Shown: positions 2,812 to 11,700 of the stretch, in pieces
Position numbering within the stretch: position 1 is the first letter of the stretch
Layout: every line of letters starts with the position of its first letter
Origin: Geotoga petraea
GTDB lineage: Bacteria; Thermotogota; Thermotogae; Petrotogales; Petrotogaceae
Reading direction: 5' to 3'
DNA: 64,000 bases
NCBI RefSeq assembly: GCF_900102615.1
Contig: NZ_FMYV01000002.1
Span: 62,001 to 126,000 of the forward strand
Notes under the pieces: model-generated
Told to the model about the DNA's origin: nothing
Seen by the model: the letters and a program-made list of their open reading frames with translations, nothing else
Databases searched by the model: none
Made by a program: the position numbers and the translations under genes

Positions 2812-3266
2812 CTTATCACCTCAATTTTTTCATTTTCAATTAGAGCTTTTTTCCATTCAGGACCATTTCCAAAATTTCCAAGTGTGCCATCGCTTTTGAT
2901 TACCCGATGACATGGGATTATCACTGGTAGTGTATTATTTTTCATCAATGTACCTACCGCTCTATAAGCTTTTTTGTTTGTAACTCTATTTGTTAATTGT
3001 TTATAACTAATAGTTTCACCAAAGTTTGTATTATATAACTCCAGATAAACTTTTTTTGCAAATTCAGTTTTCCCTGGATTTACAAAATATTTTAAGGGGA
3101 TTTTTTTATTATATTTGATTAGCTCGTCAAATAGTGTATAAAAAAAATCTTTCTCTTCATTAATTTTGCCAGTTTTCTCATTTTTAATTTCTATTTTATA
3201 AAATTTGTTGTCTTTTATTGTGATATCAAAATGACCTTTGTAAAAAGGATATTTTATTTTTCTCAT
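2808..3266 (-). CDS. ogt: Methylated-DNA--protein-cysteine methyltransferase
   Basis: A suicide repair protein that moves the alkyl group from O6-alkylguanine onto its own cysteine. The 152-residue product has a short N-terminal domain and the DNA-binding domain from about residue 65. The active-site IPCHRVI motif carries Cys119, preceded by the helix-turn-helix region GETISYKQL and the arginine-finger segment YRAVGTLMKNN. GNFGNGPEWKKALIENE closes the domain as in other family members. It overlaps the smc stop and the pncB start by four bases each, so it is embedded in an operon with smc and the uracil-DNA glycosylase, two other genome-maintenance genes. Confidence 0.93.
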   Translation of the reverse strand: MRKIKYPFYKGHFDITIKDNKFYKIEIKNEKTGKINEEKDFFYTLFDELIKYNKKIPLKYFVNPGKTEFAKKVYLELYNTNFGETISYKQLTNRVTNKKAYRAVGTLMKNNTLPVIIPCHRVIKSDGTLGNFGNGPEWKKALIENEKIEVIR

Positions 3267-6200
3267 GCTTGTAACTCCTTGAAATCAACAGGGACAACTC
3301 TTGTTATACCACCTTTCATTGTAATTCCGTGGAATACATCTGCAATTTCCATGACCAATTTGTTGTGCGTTATCATCAAAAATTGCGATTTTTCAGCGTT
3401 GTCGTTTATTAATTCAGAAATTTTACTGGCATTTATGTCATCTAACGGAGCGTCAATTTCATCTAATATGTAAAAAGGACTGGGGTTTAGTGACATCATT
3501 GCAAAAAGAAATGCTATAGCTATCAAAGCTTTTTCTCCCCCAGAAAACAAGGAAAGTTTTTGAAATTTTCTTCCTGATTTTTTTACTGAAATTTGAATAC
3601 CTTTTTCAAAAGAAAAACCTTCTCCAATCAGCCGCAATTCACCATATCCATTTGGAAATAGAGATTGTATATATTTACCAAACTCTTCATTCAAAGCAGC
3701 ATGAAAGTTTGAGTATTTATTTTCTGCAAATTCATCAAGTTGATTTATTGAATTTTTAAGAGAGGTTATGGATTCTTCAATATCTTCTTTTTCTTCTTTT
3801 TTAGAATTGTATTCTTCATTCACTTCGTTGTATTCTTCTAATACAGTTAAGTCAACAGAACCCAAATTTTTTAGTTTTTGTTGTAGTTCATCAAAGTTAA
3901 ATTTTAAAGATTTAATTTCATCATCTGATAATTCTTTAATTTCAAATTCATCTTCTGAAATATCAACATTTTCAGCTCTTTCTATCAAATATTGCCTTTC
4001 ATTTTTTAAGTTTTCAATTTTATGTTTCAACTCTTGGTTATTATTATTTATTTCAGATAACTTGTCTTTTAACTCGTTTTTTTCATTTTCTTTTTGTTCT
4101 AACTTATTGAATTTCTCATTTTTCCCAATTCGAGAGTTTTTCATTTTTTCGAATATGTTTGTTATTTCGTTGTTTAAAGAGTTGTATTCATTTTCAGAAT
4201 CTTTTAAATTTTGTTCGCTTTTTTCTTTTTCTTCTCTCTTTTTTTTGTAAAGATATTGATTTTCATCGAATTTGTCTCTCAGAGTGTTTAGATTATCCAA
4301 TATTTCTCTTTTTTGCTTTGTATAAAATTCAAATTTTTCTTGGAAATTTTTCTTTTCCATATTTAATTCAGCTATTTTTAAGTTGATCTCATTTAATTCT
4401 TCTTTTTCAACGATATTTTCTTTTTCTATTTTAGACAGTTGATTTTTACTCTTTTCAATAGTTTTTTTGTTTACATCTAATACAGTTTGAATTTCTTTTA
4501 CACGATCACTATTATTTTTTATTTGATCTTTGTATAGAGAAATTCTTTCATCTGTCTTTTTAAGAGTTTCTTTAAGTTCTTTTTTTCTATTTACATTTGA
4601 AGTATATTTGTTATTTTTTAGGTCTTTTTCTATCATTAGCTGGTTTATATTTTCATTGATTTCTTCTAATTCGTTCTTCTTTTCTTTAATATCTATGATC
4701 ATTTTGGATACTTTTTCTTGTAAATATTTTATATTTTCTTTAGCCTCATCTATCTCAATATCAAGTTCAAAAATTCTATTTTTCCTTTTTATAATAGTTG
4801 CCGAATAATCGTTTTTGACTCTTCCACCTGTTATAGCTCCATATCCAGATATAAGCTCTCCGCCAAGAGTTACTATATTGCCTCTAAATGAAGATTTTGA
4901 AATTTTAATGGCATTATTAAGCTCATCAACCAAGAGAACGTTAGAAAAGACGTATTTCATTATTTTTTCGTATTTTTTATCAAAATCAATAGTATTAATT
5001 AAATAGTCTATCACACCTGGTTCATTTAAAATTTTCTGTGAATATGTGCTTTTTGGGTTCAAGATATCTATTGATAAGAAGGTGATCTTTCCGTAAGAAT
5101 TAGATTTCAAATAGTCAATATATTCTCTCGTTTTTTTAGAACTTTTAATAACTACATTTTGGAGCTTCCCACCAACAGAAGATGAAACAGCTTCTTCAAA
5201 TTTTTGGTCAACATTGAAAAGATTAGCTACAACATCTATAACGTTATCATCACTTGAAAATTTTGTAAAAAAATCTTGTACAACCTTTGCAAATCCCTCG
5301 TAGTGATTGATTTGAGTTAGCAAAATATTTTTTTCATGATTTAAACTGGAAATTTTTTTCTTGTTATTTTCTATCTCTTCTATGTATAAATCATAATTTT
5401 CTTTCATTTTTTTCAAAGAATTGACAATTTCTTGCTTATCATTATATAATTGTTTTTCTTTTTCATTACTTTCAGAAAGCGTGTATTCAATCTCTTCAAT
5501 TACTTTATCTAAAGAGACTAATTCTTTGTTTAATTTTAAAGATTCATCGTTAAGGTAATTTAACCTTTCATCTTTAGCTTCATTTTCATTTAATTTTTGA
5601 TTTTTTTCTTTTATTAAATCGTTATTTTCTTTTTCTAACCTATTAATTATAGAGTTTAGTTCATGTAGTTTATTTTCTTCATCATTTATAGTTTTTTTGA
5701 TTTTTTCTTTGTTCTCTGTTTCTTTTTCAAGATTAATAGTTAATTCTTTTAAATCTTTTTCATACTTATTTTTTAAAGTGCTCGTTTCTTCTAACTTGAA
5801 TTCTGATTGTTTTATCTTTTCTTTTGTGTCCTCGATTTGCCAATCTATATTTATTATTTCTGTACTTAAATCATTTGTTTTTTTTGTTAGTATTTCTTTT
5901 TCATTTTCAATTACAGAGATTCTCTCTCTATAATTGTCTATCAAATCAGAGTTTTTGGCTATTGTTTCGTCAAAATTAGTTATTTCTTCTTTTAAAGATT
6001 TGTATTCCCTCTCGACTTCAAAAGATTTTCTCAAAATATTATTTCTATATTCTTGATTTTCTTGTATTTTTTCTTCAGAATATTTAATTGATTTATTAAT
6101 TTTATTTCTTTGAGCACCAAAGTACTTTTTCCCTATTACTTTTATCTCTTCTTTGTACTTTAAATAACTTTTTGCCCTACCAGCCCTGTTAGAAAGAGAT

Positions 6201-6790
6201 CTTAGCCTTCTTTCAGTAACAAATAATAAATCTTCCAACCTTTCAAGATTTTCACTGGTTTTTTCTAATAGTTTTAAGGTGTTTTCTTTTTTAGTAATGT
6301 ATTCTCCTATATCTGAAGCATCTAAAATTATTTGTCTTAACTGTTCTGGGGAAGAATTTACTATTTCACTAACTTGTCCTTGTGAAATTATTGAATAAAA
6401 TTGTTTTCCAACACCCTTGTTAGAAAAAATATCATGTATATCTTTTAATGTACAGATTTTATTATTGATATAGTATTTATTAGAAGAATTTTTTTCATAT
6501 TTTTTTGCTATTTTAATTATTTCTTTGTTATCAGCTTCAAAAATCATTTCAACTTTTGCGTAATTAGAAGCTTTTTTTGTATCTGTGCCGGCGAAAACGA
6601 CATCATTTGAATCTGATATTCTCATCTGTTTACCAGATTGCTCACCTAATAACCACCTTATGGCATCAACTATATTTGATTTGCCAGAACCATTTGGACC
6701 CACTATTGCGATAATGTTTTTATCCAAGTTAAAAATAGTTTTTTTAGCAAAACTTTTAAATCCCTCTACCTCCAAAGATAACATTTTCAT
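3263..6790 (-). CDS. smc: Chromosome segregation protein SMC
   Basis: The 1175-residue product is a full-length SMC ATPase that compacts and organises the chromosome. The N-terminal head has the Walker A motif GPNGSGKSN (about 31-39) and SIISQGQVSEIV. Long coiled-coil arms rich in Lys and Glu follow on both sides of a hinge around residues 500-660, which includes VGGKLQNVVI and GYGAITGGRV. The C-terminal head carries the ABC signature LSLFSGGEKALIAIAFLFAM and Walker B FYILDEIDAPLDD. The first ATG at 6790 (MKMLSLEVEGFKSF) lies just after the glycosylase stop; an in-frame ATG two codons later is an equally possible start. No scpA or scpB gene is in the window. Confidence 0.97.
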   Translation of the reverse strand: MKMLSLEVEGFKSFAKKTIFNLDKNIIAIVGPNGSGKSNIVDAIRWLLGEQSGKQMRISDSNDVVFAGTDTKKASNYAKVEMIFEADNKEIIKIAKKYEKNSSNKYYINNKICTLKDIHDIFSNKGVGKQFYSIISQGQVSEIVNSSPEQLRQIILDASDIGEYITKKENTLKLLEKTSENLERLEDLLFVTERRLRSLSNRAGRAKSYLKYKEEIKVIGKKYFGAQRNKINKSIKYSEEKIQENQEYRNNILRKSFEVEREYKSLKEEITNFDETIAKNSDLIDNYRERISVIENEKEILTKKTNDLSTEIINIDWQIEDTKEKIKQSEFKLEETSTLKNKYEKDLKELTINLEKETENKEKIKKTINDEENKLHELNSIINRLEKENNDLIKEKNQKLNENEAKDERLNYLNDESLKLNKELVSLDKVIEEIEYTLSESNEKEKQLYNDKQEIVNSLKKMKENYDLYIEEIENNKKKISSLNHEKNILLTQINHYEGFAKVVQDFFTKFSSDDNVIDVVANLFNVDQKFEEAVSSSVGGKLQNVVIKSSKKTREYIDYLKSNSYGKITFLSIDILNPKSTYSQKILNEPGVIDYLINTIDFDKKYEKIMKYVFSNVLLVDELNNAIKISKSSFRGNIVTLGGELISGYGAITGGRVKNDYSATIIKRKNRIFELDIEIDEAKENIKYLQEKVSKMIIDIKEKKNELEEINENINQLMIEKDLKNNKYTSNVNRKKELKETLKKTDERISLYKDQIKNNSDRVKEIQTVLDVNKKTIEKSKNQLSKIEKENIVEKEELNEINLKIAELNMEKKNFQEKFEFYTKQKREILDNLNTLRDKFDENQYLYKKKREEKEKSEQNLKDSENEYNSLNNEITNIFEKMKNSRIGKNEKFNKLEQKENEKNELKDKLSEINNNNQELKHKIENLKNERQYLIERAENVDISEDEFEIKELSDDEIKSLKFNFDELQQKLKNLGSVDLTVLEEYNEVNEEYNSKKEEKEDIEESITSLKNSINQLDEFAENKYSNFHAALNEEFGKYIQSLFPNGYGELRLIGEGFSFEKGIQISVKKSGRKFQKLSLFSGGEKALIAIAFLFAMMSLNPSPFYILDEIDAPLDDINASKISELINDNAEKSQFLMITHNKLVMEIADVFHGITMKGGITRVVPVDFKELQA

Positions 6791-6791
6791 T

Positions 6792-7442
6792 TTAAATGCC
6801 CCCGGACTCTTTCATCCTACTGTTTATCGCCGAAACAACTTCATTTATATTTTTACCCTTTTGAAGGGCCCTAAACATTACCCCAATTGCTCTCATATCC
6901 ATGTAAGAATACCATCTTGGTGAACCTTTTTCCATGGAGTGATTTCTCAAAAGATAACTTGGGTGAAAAGTTACAAATGTTTTTATATTTCCATACCAAT
7001 CGTAGAATTTTCCTCTTGATTCGCTAATTTTCTTTTTGTTTGTAAAATATGACATTGAAGTTGCGCCTAAAGTTACTATTACTTTTGGTTTAATAACTAA
7101 CATTTGAGATTCAAGGTATTGAATACAAGATTTCATTTCATCATCAGTAGGAACTCTGTTTTTGGGAGGTCTACATTTCACAATATTTGATATATATATA
7201 TCATTTCTATTTATACCTGCCCAATCTTTAAGCATTTTATCTAACAGCTTGCCTGCTCTGCCGACAAAGGGTCTGCCTGATGAATCTTCATCTGCGCCAG
7301 GACCTTCACCAATAAAAACTAAAGGAGAATCAACATTTCCTTCTCCGGGTACAACATTATTTCTTGTTAAATGCAAAGAACATTTTTCACATTTTGAAAT
7401 AGTTTTTTTTATAGCTTCAAGTTCTGTATTTTTATTTATAAT
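6792..7442 (-). CDS. udg: Type 4 uracil-DNA glycosylase (4Fe-4S), probable AUU start
   Basis: Removes uracil from DNA arising by cytosine deamination. The protein has motif A GEGPGADEDSSGRPFVGRAG and motif B FHPSYLLRN. Type 4 enzymes bind a 4Fe-4S cluster through four cysteines. Two are inside the obvious frame (KCRPP and KSCIQ, 16 residues apart, as in characterised enzymes). The other two form KCEKC immediately upstream of the first conventional start, a TTG at 7376. No ATG, GTG, TTG or CTG exists between the in-frame TGA at 7448-7446 and that CEKC. A strong AAAGGAG at 7455-7449 is spaced 6 bases from ATT (7442), 3 from ATA (7445) and 9 from ATA (7439). I chose ATT, giving 216 residues with cysteines 18, 21, 90 and 106. 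The preceding gene's stop touches the binding site, so coupling is likely. Confidence 0.88.
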   Translation of the reverse strand: MINKNTELEAIKKTISKCEKCSLHLTRNNVVPGEGNVDSPLVFIGEGPGADEDSSGRPFVGRAGKLLDKMLKDWAGINRNDIYISNIVKCRPPKNRVPTDDEMKSCIQYLESQMLVIKPKVIVTLGATSMSYFTNKKKISESRGKFYDWYGNIKTFVTFHPSYLLRNHSMEKGSPRWYSYMDMRAIGVMFRALQKGKNINEVVSAINSRMKESGGI

Positions 7443-7453
7443 TATTCACTCCT

Positions 7454-10400
7454 TTACATTAATCCAAATTCAAATCCTTGATCACTATATTTTACATTTT
7501 TATCTGGTATATAGTTAATAAAAAAAGTAAAAGAAAATCCAGAAACTTTAAAATTGGGAAGTAGCGTTAAAGCTGGGTCATTCGTATTATTAGGGCTATA
7601 TGCTTTTAGATTTAATGTCCAACAAACTATTTTTTTCTGTATTTCAAAAACATCAAAAGAAAAATCTTTGGTTATGCCATTATACTTTATCCCAAACTTT
7701 CCAAATTCTGACTCATCAGAATTTTCAATTTGTATAGAACTTTTAGTTTCTTTTTCTTCAATATAATGTTCAAGGTCTAATTCAACAAAAAACTGAGAAT
7801 TTTGTTGAATAAATTTATTCTCTGTTTTAATATGATTGTATTGGTCATTTATTAAAAGTGATCCATTTAGTTTATTATTGTTAAAATAAAAATTGTAGTT
7901 TGCCTCTATTTTAGGTATTTTTTCTTTCCACAAACTTTTTGAAAGAAAATAATCATAATCGATTTGAATCTTATTTCGTGAAAATTTAAAGGTTTCAGTA
8001 TTTTCTAAGTATTCTATTTTGGGTTCTTCTTGATGTTTGATTTCAAATTTAGTTTTATGATCATAAGAGTAAATAGAATTAGATATCTCAATGCTTGTTT
8101 TTTCTAGTTTTATATTTTCATCATCTTCAACGTCAAATTTTGTATCTGTTTTTATTCTATGTCTTGTGTTTAAAATACTTAGCTCTGTTTTTGTATTTAT
8201 ATTTAGACTATCTAAATCAAATCTATCCAAAAAAGATAAATGTAGATCTTCATTTTTATATAAAAAATTTCTTTCTAACAAAATTGAATTTTTAAGATTA
8301 TTATTCAATATATTTAAATCATATCCAATAAAGTCGCCATAACTAATCTGGTCAGTGGCAGAAGGAGTTAAATTGTTTTCAAAAACTTTTCTAAAGTTCA
8401 AATAAGTTCCGGCCTTAAAAATATTATATTTAAAATCAATTTGGGGTTTTACATTTAAATCAAAATATGTTTTTCCAAAAGAATATTCGCTTTGTTCAAT
8501 AAGATCTAATTTATGATTAAAATTACTTGTGAAATTTATATAATTATCTAAATTAAAATCATTTATATTATAAGAAAAAGCATTATATTTATAATTAAAC
8601 TTATTATTGCTTTCTAATCTATCTTGAGTGACTTTTGTTGCTACTTTAGTCCTGTCATAATTAAAGTTACCAGATAATGAACTGTTATTTGAATAAAGAT
8701 TGTATTTTCCTTCAAGTTCTGTATTTGATATTCTATTTTGCCAAATTTCAACTATATCGTTTTTTGCATTTGAATTTTCAGCAGATTTTGCATTAAAATC
8801 TAAATCACTGATTGATATTATTGACCTTTTATATTTTTTTTGAAATGCGTCAGTTGAAAGACTATAAAACTCAACAAAGTCAATTGTCCTTTCTTTCCAA
8901 ATTATTTGAGATTTTATATCTTCTATTGTACCGTAGTTTGTTTTTAATTCTGGAATATTCAAACTTATTTGTTGTTTATTAGAGCTGGGAGAATGTTGGG
9001 CTTTGAGGTTGCCATCAAAATCAAAATCATATTGTAATCCTAAAGAAGTTAAAGTTTCGTTGTATAAATTTGAAAAAATAGAGAACTCACCATTTAAAAA
9101 AGGAAATCCATAATTAAAAGACGAACTTTGATCAAAAGAATTTTTTTCTAAGTCATTTATGATTTCATAATTAAATTTTAATTTTGAATTATTTTCAAAA
9201 GTATAATTTATTCCCACATTTACGTTGATCTTATTATCTTCGTATTTTAGCACTAATTTTAGTGGTTCATCTTCATCTTCAGCAAGACTCTGAAAATAAA
9301 AAGGGAAGTAAAACACTGGCATTCCAAAAAAATCTAATACAACATCTCTTGCTATTAAAAATTTTTTTGGAAAAACAGTAACTTTCCTGGCACTCATATA
9401 ATAGGTAATATTGTCTTCACAAGTTGTCAATTTGATTCTGTTTGAAAATATTATATCGTCGTTGATTGGTTTTTCCGTCTCTTCAGACCAAATTCTAACA
9501 GACACTTTTTCATTGTCTTTATACTTTTGAATAGTATAAGAATTTAAAAATAAAGCTGTATCGGTTTCATAATTTATAGTCATTTGAGATGCTTCAATAG
9601 TGTTTTTTTCATATTGATATTTTACTCCATTGGTTAATTCTGCAAATTTTACTGTATTGTCTTCTCTAAGTACAATTTTCCCGCTTCCAGCATCTACTAT
9701 GGTGTCTTGATAGTTTATCGTCAAAGTCGAGTCTATTGTAATTGTGTTATTAAAAATATTGAAGTCATTAGCTTTTATATTAACTTTTTCAGAATAACCA
9801 GTGCTCCCGATTGAAAAAATAAAAACAACAATAGCGATGGAGAAGAATTTTTTTAATGGCTCTGTTACTTTATAAGATATTTTAGTATCTAACAATATAA
9901 ATAGCAATATACCTATGGAACCAAAGAGTATATTTGGTAGCCAGGAAGCTAAAACAGGGTTAACAATTTCTTCCTTACCCAGAGCAGTTATCCAAGCTCC
10001 ACTGCCTTGATATAAAACCACTAAAACAAATGTTGTTATAACACTCCATGATTTACTTTTAATATTTAAAAAAAGTGATAATGATATTCCTAAAATAGCA
10101 ATTACTAAAGGTGCCAAAGAATTAGCAAACTTGTTGTGGTAAGAAACTATTAATCCAGAAACATTTGAGCCTAATTTAGAAAAGGTGATTATTTTTTCTT
10201 TTAATTCTCTCGTTGTCATTTCATTAGCCCCTTTTGAAAAGTTAATAAACTCTTCAACATCTGCGGCAATGTTTAGATCAAGAGAATCAAAAGAAACATC
10301 TAACTCTAAAAATCCATTATCTTTCATTTTATAAATTCTACCATTTTCCATTTTCCATCCATCTGGATATTTTTGCGCTCTTTCGGCGTGAAAAACTTTG

Positions 10401-10951
10401 ACATTATCATAGGCTACTTCATATAAAAGGAGTTCATATAAAATACCAGTGTTTCTGTCCAATTCTTTAACAAACAAGTATCTATCATCACCAAGATCGA
10501 CAAATTCATTGTCTTCTATAGTTGCCTCTGGTTTTTCATAAATGTATTTAGCCATGGCTTGTTTTGCTTTATAGTTTGAATTTGGCACCAGATTATCGTA
10601 AAGATAAAAAGTAAAAAGTGACAAAAAAATTGATATCAAAAGAAATGGTATAACTATTTTTCTTGTTGGAACACCTAAAGTTTGCATTGCTATTAACTCA
10701 TTATCATTAGTAAATCTTGATACTACCCAAAAGATAGAAAATAAAACACCTACAGGTATCCCCATTGAAATAAAGTATGGTAAGTTATACCATAACAATA
10801 GTAGTAATTTGTCAAAACCAACATGATTTTTTACTATAATTTCTGATAATTCGTATAAAAGCTGAACACTAACAAAAACAATAAAACCAAATAATCCCAT
10901 AAAAAATGGAGCTGAAAATTCTTTGGTAATGTATTTGATTAAACGTTTCAT
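7454..10951 (-). CDS. LptF/LptG-type permease fused to OstA/LptD-like protein
   Basis: Residues 1 to about 360 are a YjgP/YjgQ (LptF/LptG) permease: three membrane helices, a periplasmic jellyroll-like domain, and three more helices. LptF and LptG extract lipopolysaccharide for the Lpt bridge in Proteobacteria. Around residues 368-390 a Lys-Lys start, a hydrophobic run and STGYS look like a signal peptide embedded in the chain. After it come repeated beta-rich segments (KANDFNIFNNTITIDST, TINYQDTIVDAGSGKIVL) typical of the OstA/LptA fold, then a long Asn/Lys/Tyr-rich region of alternating strands resembling an LptD-type barrel to residue 1165. The ATG at 10951 has GAGGAAG upstream and overlaps the PhoU-like stop as ATGA, so it is preferred over an upstream 16-residue extension. 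The substrate is unknown. Confidence 0.85.
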   Translation of the reverse strand: MKRLIKYITKEFSAPFFMGLFGFIVFVSVQLLYELSEIIVKNHVGFDKLLLLLWYNLPYFISMGIPVGVLFSIFWVVSRFTNDNELIAMQTLGVPTRKIVIPFLLISIFLSLFTFYLYDNLVPNSNYKAKQAMAKYIYEKPEATIEDNEFVDLGDDRYLFVKELDRNTGILYELLLYEVAYDNVKVFHAERAQKYPDGWKMENGRIYKMKDNGFLELDVSFDSLDLNIAADVEEFINFSKGANEMTTRELKEKIITFSKLGSNVSGLIVSYHNKFANSLAPLVIAILGISLSLFLNIKSKSWSVITTFVLVVLYQGSGAWITALGKEEIVNPVLASWLPNILFGSIGILLFILLDTKISYKVTEPLKKFFSIAIVVFIFSIGSTGYSEKVNIKANDFNIFNNTITIDSTLTINYQDTIVDAGSGKIVLREDNTVKFAELTNGVKYQYEKNTIEASQMTINYETDTALFLNSYTIQKYKDNEKVSVRIWSEETEKPINDDIIFSNRIKLTTCEDNITYYMSARKVTVFPKKFLIARDVVLDFFGMPVFYFPFYFQSLAEDEDEPLKLVLKYEDNKINVNVGINYTFENNSKLKFNYEIINDLEKNSFDQSSSFNYGFPFLNGEFSIFSNLYNETLTSLGLQYDFDFDGNLKAQHSPSSNKQQISLNIPELKTNYGTIEDIKSQIIWKERTIDFVEFYSLSTDAFQKKYKRSIISISDLDFNAKSAENSNAKNDIVEIWQNRISNTELEGKYNLYSNNSSLSGNFNYDRTKVATKVTQDRLESNNKFNYKYNAFSYNINDFNLDNYINFTSNFNHKLDLIEQSEYSFGKTYFDLNVKPQIDFKYNIFKAGTYLNFRKVFENNLTPSATDQISYGDFIGYDLNILNNNLKNSILLERNFLYKNEDLHLSFLDRFDLDSLNINTKTELSILNTRHRIKTDTKFDVEDDENIKLEKTSIEISNSIYSYDHKTKFEIKHQEEPKIEYLENTETFKFSRNKIQIDYDYFLSKSLWKEKIPKIEANYNFYFNNNKLNGSLLINDQYNHIKTENKFIQQNSQFFVELDLEHYIEEKETKSSIQIENSDESEFGKFGIKYNGITKDFSFDVFEIQKKIVCWTLNLKAYSPNNTNDPALTLLPNFKVSGFSFTFFINYIPDKNVKYSDQGFEFGLM

Positions 10952-11700
10952 AGTTCTTCCTCGTATGAGTAGAAATACTCTAAATCTTTCCCTCTGCATT
11001 TATATTTTGATCCGCTTAGTGCCCATATTACATTTTCTGATATATTAGTTGAAAAGTCGGCAAATTGTTCAATATTCGATAAAACATTTAAATGCAAATT
11101 AATTGTTTTCGTTTGTTCTTTTGATCTATACAAAATCTTTTTAAATGCTGATAGTAAAGAATTTACATCTTGATTCAAAAAGCAAATCTCTTTTGCCGAT
11201 AAGAAAAAATTTTTTTGAGATTCTTCTTCAATTAGTTTTTGTATGTCTAAATTGACGAAATTTGATAATAATTTTAAAGAAAGGGTCAACATCTTTTGGC
11301 TTTGAGAAAAAATGTCCTCGAAGCTAAGCATATTAACTAATTGAGGGAGTTTAAGAATTTCAAGGTTTAATTTTGCGTTTTTTTCACAAAGATCTCCCAT
11401 ATTTTCAAAAATATAACTCATTTTTATTCCAAGCATGGTAGCTTTTAAATATACTCCTGTAAAATTTTGTGAGCCAAGCATAGATAAACCCTCATACTCT
11501 AATTTTGTTTCTAAAAAGTCTAACCTGTCATCTTGTTTAATAATTTCGTTACATAAGTTTTTATCCTTTTCAAAATAGGCATCTTTAAATTTGTAAAACA
11601 TGCCTTGAACTATTCTTCCCATTTTTAAAACGTTGTTTAAATATATTTTTAAATTTTCTTTTTTAAAGTTGCTAATATCGTTTGATTTTTTATATTCCAT
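10948..11700 (-). CDS. PhoU-like domain protein
   Basis: The 250-residue, all-helical product resembles PhoU: two three-helix repeats, with DDRLDFLETKLEYEGLSML in the first, where PhoU has D-x-x-I-D-x-L-E, and FENMGDLCEKNAK, where PhoU has the metal-binding E-R-I-G-D-x-A-x-x-I-A. The match is partial and several metal ligands are changed. PhoU normally represses phosphate uptake through PhoR and the Pst transporter. Neither pst nor pho genes are adjacent; it sits between nadK and the LptF-OstA fusion, overlapping the latter by four bases. A role in phosphate signalling is therefore an inference from fold alone. Confidence 0.65.
   Translation of the reverse strand: MEYKKSNDISNFKKENLKIYLNNVLKMGRIVQGMFYKFKDAYFEKDKNLCNEIIKQDDRLDFLETKLEYEGLSMLGSQNFTGVYLKATMLGIKMSYIFENMGDLCEKNAKLNLEILKLPQLVNMLSFEDIFSQSQKMLTLSLKLLSNFVNLDIQKLIEEESQKNFFLSAKEICFLNQDVNSLLSAFKKILYRSKEQTKTINLHLNVLSNIEQFADFSTNISENVIWALSGSKYKCRGKDLEYFYSYEEEL

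Follow-up and report, generated by a model that had tools for sequence, protein, structure and literature searches.

The infC and pcnB genes of Escherichia coli start at AUU codons and have long been studied by experiment. According to the accessible part of a study on Staphylococcus aureus, infC, ccpN and citZ start at AUA and cvfC1 at AUU; the ccpN, citZ and cvfC1 reporters reach about 10% of the AUG level in poor medium, with ccpN rising up to 30% in rich medium, and the AUA of citZ is limited to strains of one lineage (PMC13009471). In Listeria, the available portion of a further report describes (i) rsbW reporters whose output follows the order ATG > ATA > ATT, the change from ATG to ATA still yielding protein, and (ii) fixed starts at ATT for infC and at ATC for rnhC (PMC13068326).

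The gene described here, a predicted family 4 (4Fe-4S) uracil-DNA glycosylase gene (udg), belongs to Geotoga petraea, a species with two published strains, HO-Geo1 and WG14 (GCA_004768445, GCA_900102615), at 99.3% ANI (PMC10112263, as far as its accessible text goes; PMC6639626). It lies on the minus strand of the window, the whole stretch of 64,000 nucleotides that was analysed, and is probably translated, as an intact gene, from a non-canonical AUA codon at 7439-7437, placed by an AAAGGAG Shine-Dalgarno (SD) sequence. What the locus would share with E. coli infC and pcnB is a low output through a rare AUH start, the codon being AUU there and AUA here. The likeness to citZ, ccpN and infC of S. 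aureus resides in an AUA behind a strong SD, and in the case of citZ also in its restriction to a lineage; nevertheless, the S. aureus starts derive from ribosome profiling or re-annotation, with reporters for citZ and ccpN, whereas that of udg is read from sequence only, in another gene and another phylum (PMC13009471, accessible part). The Listeria rsbW variants resemble udg both in a one-transition change from a canonical start to ATA within a subset of genomes and in an upstream gene that overlaps or abuts, but they come with a measured effect on SigB, whereas udg is known from the sequence of one genome (PMC13068326, available portion). Since the udg start is private among the genomes searched, the gene is closer to the lineage-specific citZ and rsbW than to the conserved infC. 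The locus comprises the following features, in window positions:

7454 to 10999, minus strand: LptF/LptG-family permease, upstream neighbour, with a long C-terminal extension
7449 to 7455, minus strand: AAAGGAG, SD of udg, sharing bases with the stop codon of the lptF-like gene upstream
7446 to 7448, minus strand: in-frame TGA closing the udg frame upstream
7443 to 7445, minus strand: ATA, unlikely udg start, spacing 2
7440 to 7442, minus strand: ATT, second-choice udg start codon, aligned SD spacing 5
7437 to 7439, minus strand: ATA, inferred udg start codon, 16 codons ahead of the first cluster cysteine, aligned spacing 8
6792 to 7439, minus strand: family 4 uracil-DNA glycosylase (udg), read from the inferred AUA, 215 codons plus stop
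7374 to 7376, minus strand: TTG, first canonical in-frame start of udg, downstream of CEKC, with GAAA as its only SD match
3263 to 6790, minus strand: SMC chromosome segregation protein, downstream neighbour (TIGR02168, 800 bits)

The udg frame comprises 217 codons on the minus strand, from just after the TGA at 7448-7446 to the stop ending at 6792, and opens with ATA (7445), ATT (7442), ATA (7439), AAT AAA AAT ACA GAA, followed further on by TGT GAA AAA TGT, the codons of CEKC. The earlier note on this DNA had placed both CEKC cysteines upstream of the first ATG, GTG or TTG and had seen no conventional start between the TGA and these cysteines; the minus-strand codons confirm both points, with no in-frame ATG, GTG or TTG in that interval and with the TTG at 7376, the first to occur, lying downstream of both cysteines. 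The stop codon of the lptF-like gene (TAA, 7456-7454) is located 14 nt upstream of the inferred AUA. The permease match of this neighbour covers residues 22-367 of the 7454-10999 (minus strand) protein, and its extension of about 800 residues has no Pfam match at E 0.001; by eye, the extension is OstA/LptD-like, possibly reflecting a fusion of two LPS-export parts.

The udg protein scores 190.9 bits against TIGR00758, the family 4 uracil-DNA glycosylase model (cut-off 125.3), and 131.9 bits against PF03167 (cut-off 24.3), whereas its score of 212 against the type-4 equivalog model NF040953 stays under the cut-off of 250, and a search for UdgX membership returned 149.6 bits for TIGR03914, below the cut-off of 189.95. 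The nearest solved sequence relative is TM0511 from Thermotoga maritima (1vk2, 1l9g); the homology spans residues 8-172, and the four cysteines of TM0511 (1vk2) align with those of the udg protein. These cysteines (Cys 19, 22, 91 and 107, counted from 7445) are invariant in an alignment of eight sequences, comprising the window protein and seven relatives, and the complete four-cysteine 4Fe-4S set is obtained only with a translation start upstream of CEKC. The protein also carries GEGPG and HPSYLLRN, which we take to be the active-site motifs, and G46-A51 and H161-L165 are invariant in the same alignment. No sign of faster decay is apparent, since the identity to the nearest relative, L002, is 68.5% and exceeds the 60.6% found between L002 and L003. 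The gene is the sole member of the UDG superfamily above the Pfam cut-off in the genome, the next match attaining 13.9 bits against a cut-off of 24.3. Altogether, the encoded protein looks intact, a predicted family 4 glycosylase.

A start at the TTG at 7376 is what a gene finder restricted to ATG, GTG and TTG reports, giving a 194-aa protein without the N-terminal cysteines. It would remove two of the four cluster cysteines, bearing out the expectation in the earlier note that half of the 4Fe-4S site would be deleted, and only GAAA matches an SD ahead of it. In contrast, the CxxC is kept in 37/37 relatives with a match and in 80/80 loci of a wider set drawn mostly from other phyla; relatives that start at the aligned TTG and lack the CxxC, which would have spoken for the short protein, are absent among them. 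The TTG alternative fails because the relatives have an ATG, GTG or TTG upstream and keep the CxxC; without an SD and with CEKC lost, this start was rejected as highly improbable.

The selection among the three AUH codons relies on SD spacing, calibrated on 463 kb of the same genome (the window plus 399 kb, 21% of 2,166,325 bases), where scoring took in 213 genes whose SD match spanned at least 6 bases and whose spacing was 4-11. The aligned spacings were 4 (n=5), 5 (n=10), 6 (n=28), 7 (n=87), 8 (n=50), 9 (n=23), 10 (n=8) and 11 (n=2), with a peak at 7-8, and three further window genes with AAAGGAG show spacings of 7, 8 and 9. The AAAGGAG at 7455-7449 stands at a spacing of 8 from the ATA at 7439, 5 from the ATT at 7442 and 2 from the ATA at 7445, so that the SD lies at the usual distance of the genome for the ATA at 7439. 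The earlier note had considered all three codons to be at the right distance: this holds for 7439, leaves the ATT as second choice, and fails for 7445, which is ruled out by a spacing beneath the scored range of 4-11. Judged by spacing alone, the AUA at 7439 is about five times likelier than the AUU at 7442. Because its spacing sits in the genome's 7-8 peak, the AUA at 7439 is the likely start codon of udg, followed by the AUU at 7442, and the proposal of an AUU or AUA start is thus supported as the best reading and narrowed to one codon. The anti-SD was assumed to be standard because the Rfam model detected no 16S rRNA gene in this assembly, whose contigs probably lack the rRNA operons.

An alternative entry into the gene would use a GTG at 7449 in the neighbouring frame (GTG AAT AAT TAT AAA TAA), which runs to the TAA at 7434-7432, where a +1 shift leads into the udg frame. 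This GTG overlaps AAAGGAG itself, making its spacing impossible for that SD, and the local RNA fold at the udg start is no better than that of shuffled sequences (z -0.73). The frameshift alternative was rejected on spacing and has a negligible probability.

AUH starts are rare in the sampled part of this genome. A filter demanding an ATA, ATT, ATC or CTG whose SD match spans 6 bases or more, located more than two codons before the first canonical start, passes udg alone among the 63 ORFs of the window. Filtering of the 427 ORFs of the 463-kb sample left four rows, udg included. The other three were judged ordinary and comprise (i) an ORF with ATA immediately before ATG; (ii) an ORF of the A2M family, in which a weak AGAAAG lies six codons ahead of a canonical start; and (iii) an FlhB-family ORF with an ATT 56 codons before the canonical start, the domain beginning at residue 91 of the extended frame. 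Thus udg was judged the sole credible AUH start within the 427 ORFs sampled (463 kb, 21% of the genome).

The comparison with relatives covered 41 genomes, 38 of which, including this one, have a udg match (3 of the 40 relatives have none); Geotoga is represented by one genome among those searched. The upstream codons were read in all 37 relatives with a match (29 and the remaining eight). The search for a conventional start at the aligned position, suggested by the earlier note, supported its proposal: in 37/37, a canonical in-frame start follows the upstream stop and precedes the first cluster cysteine, and in nine of them (L002, L015-L020, L177 and L182) an ATG sits 16 codons ahead of the cysteine, exactly at the position of the ATA at 7439. 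In the other relatives the likely start is mostly found 17 to 22 codons before the cysteine, and 12 in L181; because the start position varies in this way, the aligned ATG of the nine is supportive, not compelling. In the wider set, a canonical start precedes the CxxC in 79/80 loci, the exception, L066, displaying a long proline-rich leader. In one of the nine, L182 (G020:C9:14000-15050), udg runs in two frames owing to a break further on, caused by a mutation or an error of assembly.

A non-canonical udg start is shared by 0/37 relatives with a match and is thus private to this genome among the 38, so that no conservation vouches for it. As these relatives start canonically, udg is not classed as a conserved regulatory start of the infC type. 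A scan of genome contigs, from which near records may be omitted, yielded a single Thermotogota record (L033), with none recognised as belonging to the family, and viral contigs scanned for the pattern of the udg start region gave no hit.

The same distribution bears on two further explanations. According to the first, udg is an ordinary gene with an ATG at 7439, disguised by a sequencing or assembly error: one wrong base would be enough, all 37 relatives with a match start canonically, and the ATA is seen in one genome of the genus only. Nevertheless, the assembly is good (99.75% complete, 17 contigs) and the remainder of the udg frame is clean. Single-base errors are rare in such assemblies, and there is little chance of one falling on any of the start codons, which number about 2000; an error at this site is considered unlikely.

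According to the second, which appears quite improbable, a recent start mutation cut UDG to a trace in this strain, without regulatory purpose, as a loss or near-loss on the way to a pseudogene. The ATA private to this genome among the 38 would fit such an event, as would the start-codon ATG>ATA variants of Listeria, which, in the available portion of the report, arise as expression-lowering mutations (PMC13068326); moreover, a very recent mutation would leave no trace in frame or identity. However, the 215 codons are intact, the invariant residues are kept, no drop in identity to the nearest relative is seen, and udg is the only UDG-superfamily gene of the genome over the cut-off.

A precedent for AUA initiation in the lineage, though no proof, is provided by infC. 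Of 40 genomes with an infC match, 39 were read (loci L113 and L152, both from this genome, and L114-L151; G025 was left out), with start codons parsed by script in 37 genomes and taken from printed codons for L148 and L150, both of which display an ATA and no canonical start in those codons. The AUH codon with the best SD match is ATA in 16/37, ATC in 12/37 and ATT in 9/37, and in 21/37 the stretch from the upstream stop to the conserved region contains no canonical start. The other 16/37 contain some in-frame ATG, GTG or TTG, often within the SD or elsewhere without a good SD; a TTG at spacing 4 in L143, L144, L145, L147 and L151 is absent from relatives such as L141 and L146. In this genome, infC reads AGGATGGTGATACTC ATA AGC, the script having chosen the earlier of two ATA codons, and the AUA assignment rests on alignment with relatives because an ATG and a GTG lie in frame inside the SD. 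As read from these codons, infC appears to begin at AUA, AUC or AUU across the 39 genomes of the phylum, and at AUA in the bacterial family to which this genome belongs, making an AUA start of udg plausible in the lineage.

In the proposed mechanism, AAAGGAG would place the ribosome on the AUA at 7439-7437, and ribosomes ending the lptF-like gene 14 nt upstream probably aid initiation by coupling. The AUA probably derived within the lineage, by a single G-to-A change, from an ancestral ATG kept by relatives at the aligned site. Judging from other bacteria, AUA would be poorly read by initiator tRNA and such complexes would be rejected by IF3; because of both, a low UDG level is expected, and udg output may be low and IF3-dependent. 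Along the lines suggested by the earlier note, the AUA might serve a regulatory role, comprising low expression or a control resembling autoregulation. A more far-reaching proposal, very doubtful at present, ties base-excision repair to IF3: with udg and infC both at AUA, the cell's only UDG would increase as IF3 becomes scarce relative to ribosomes and decrease as it becomes abundant, a small AUA regulon thereby setting the tolerance to cytosine deamination. The presumed change from ATG to ATA at 7437-7439 is of the C:G to T:A type, which results when deaminated cytosine escapes repair and which UDG counteracts; the match may be coincidental or causal.

The AUA-start phenomenon is already known, and, as far as the literature searched extends, neither the udg gene nor the phylum had been connected with it: the search found no report of an AUA-start udg, nor of infC starts in Thermotogota. 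In practical terms, gene finders limited to ATG, GTG and TTG would truncate udg, with the loss of half of its iron-sulphur site, or miss the gene, and the apparent AUA, AUC or AUU starts of infC in 39 genomes of the phylum offer annotators a second place to check. If real, the udg start extends the short list of AUA-start genes by one for DNA repair, and provides a natural case in which translation probably limits the only UDG-superfamily gene that a genome has.
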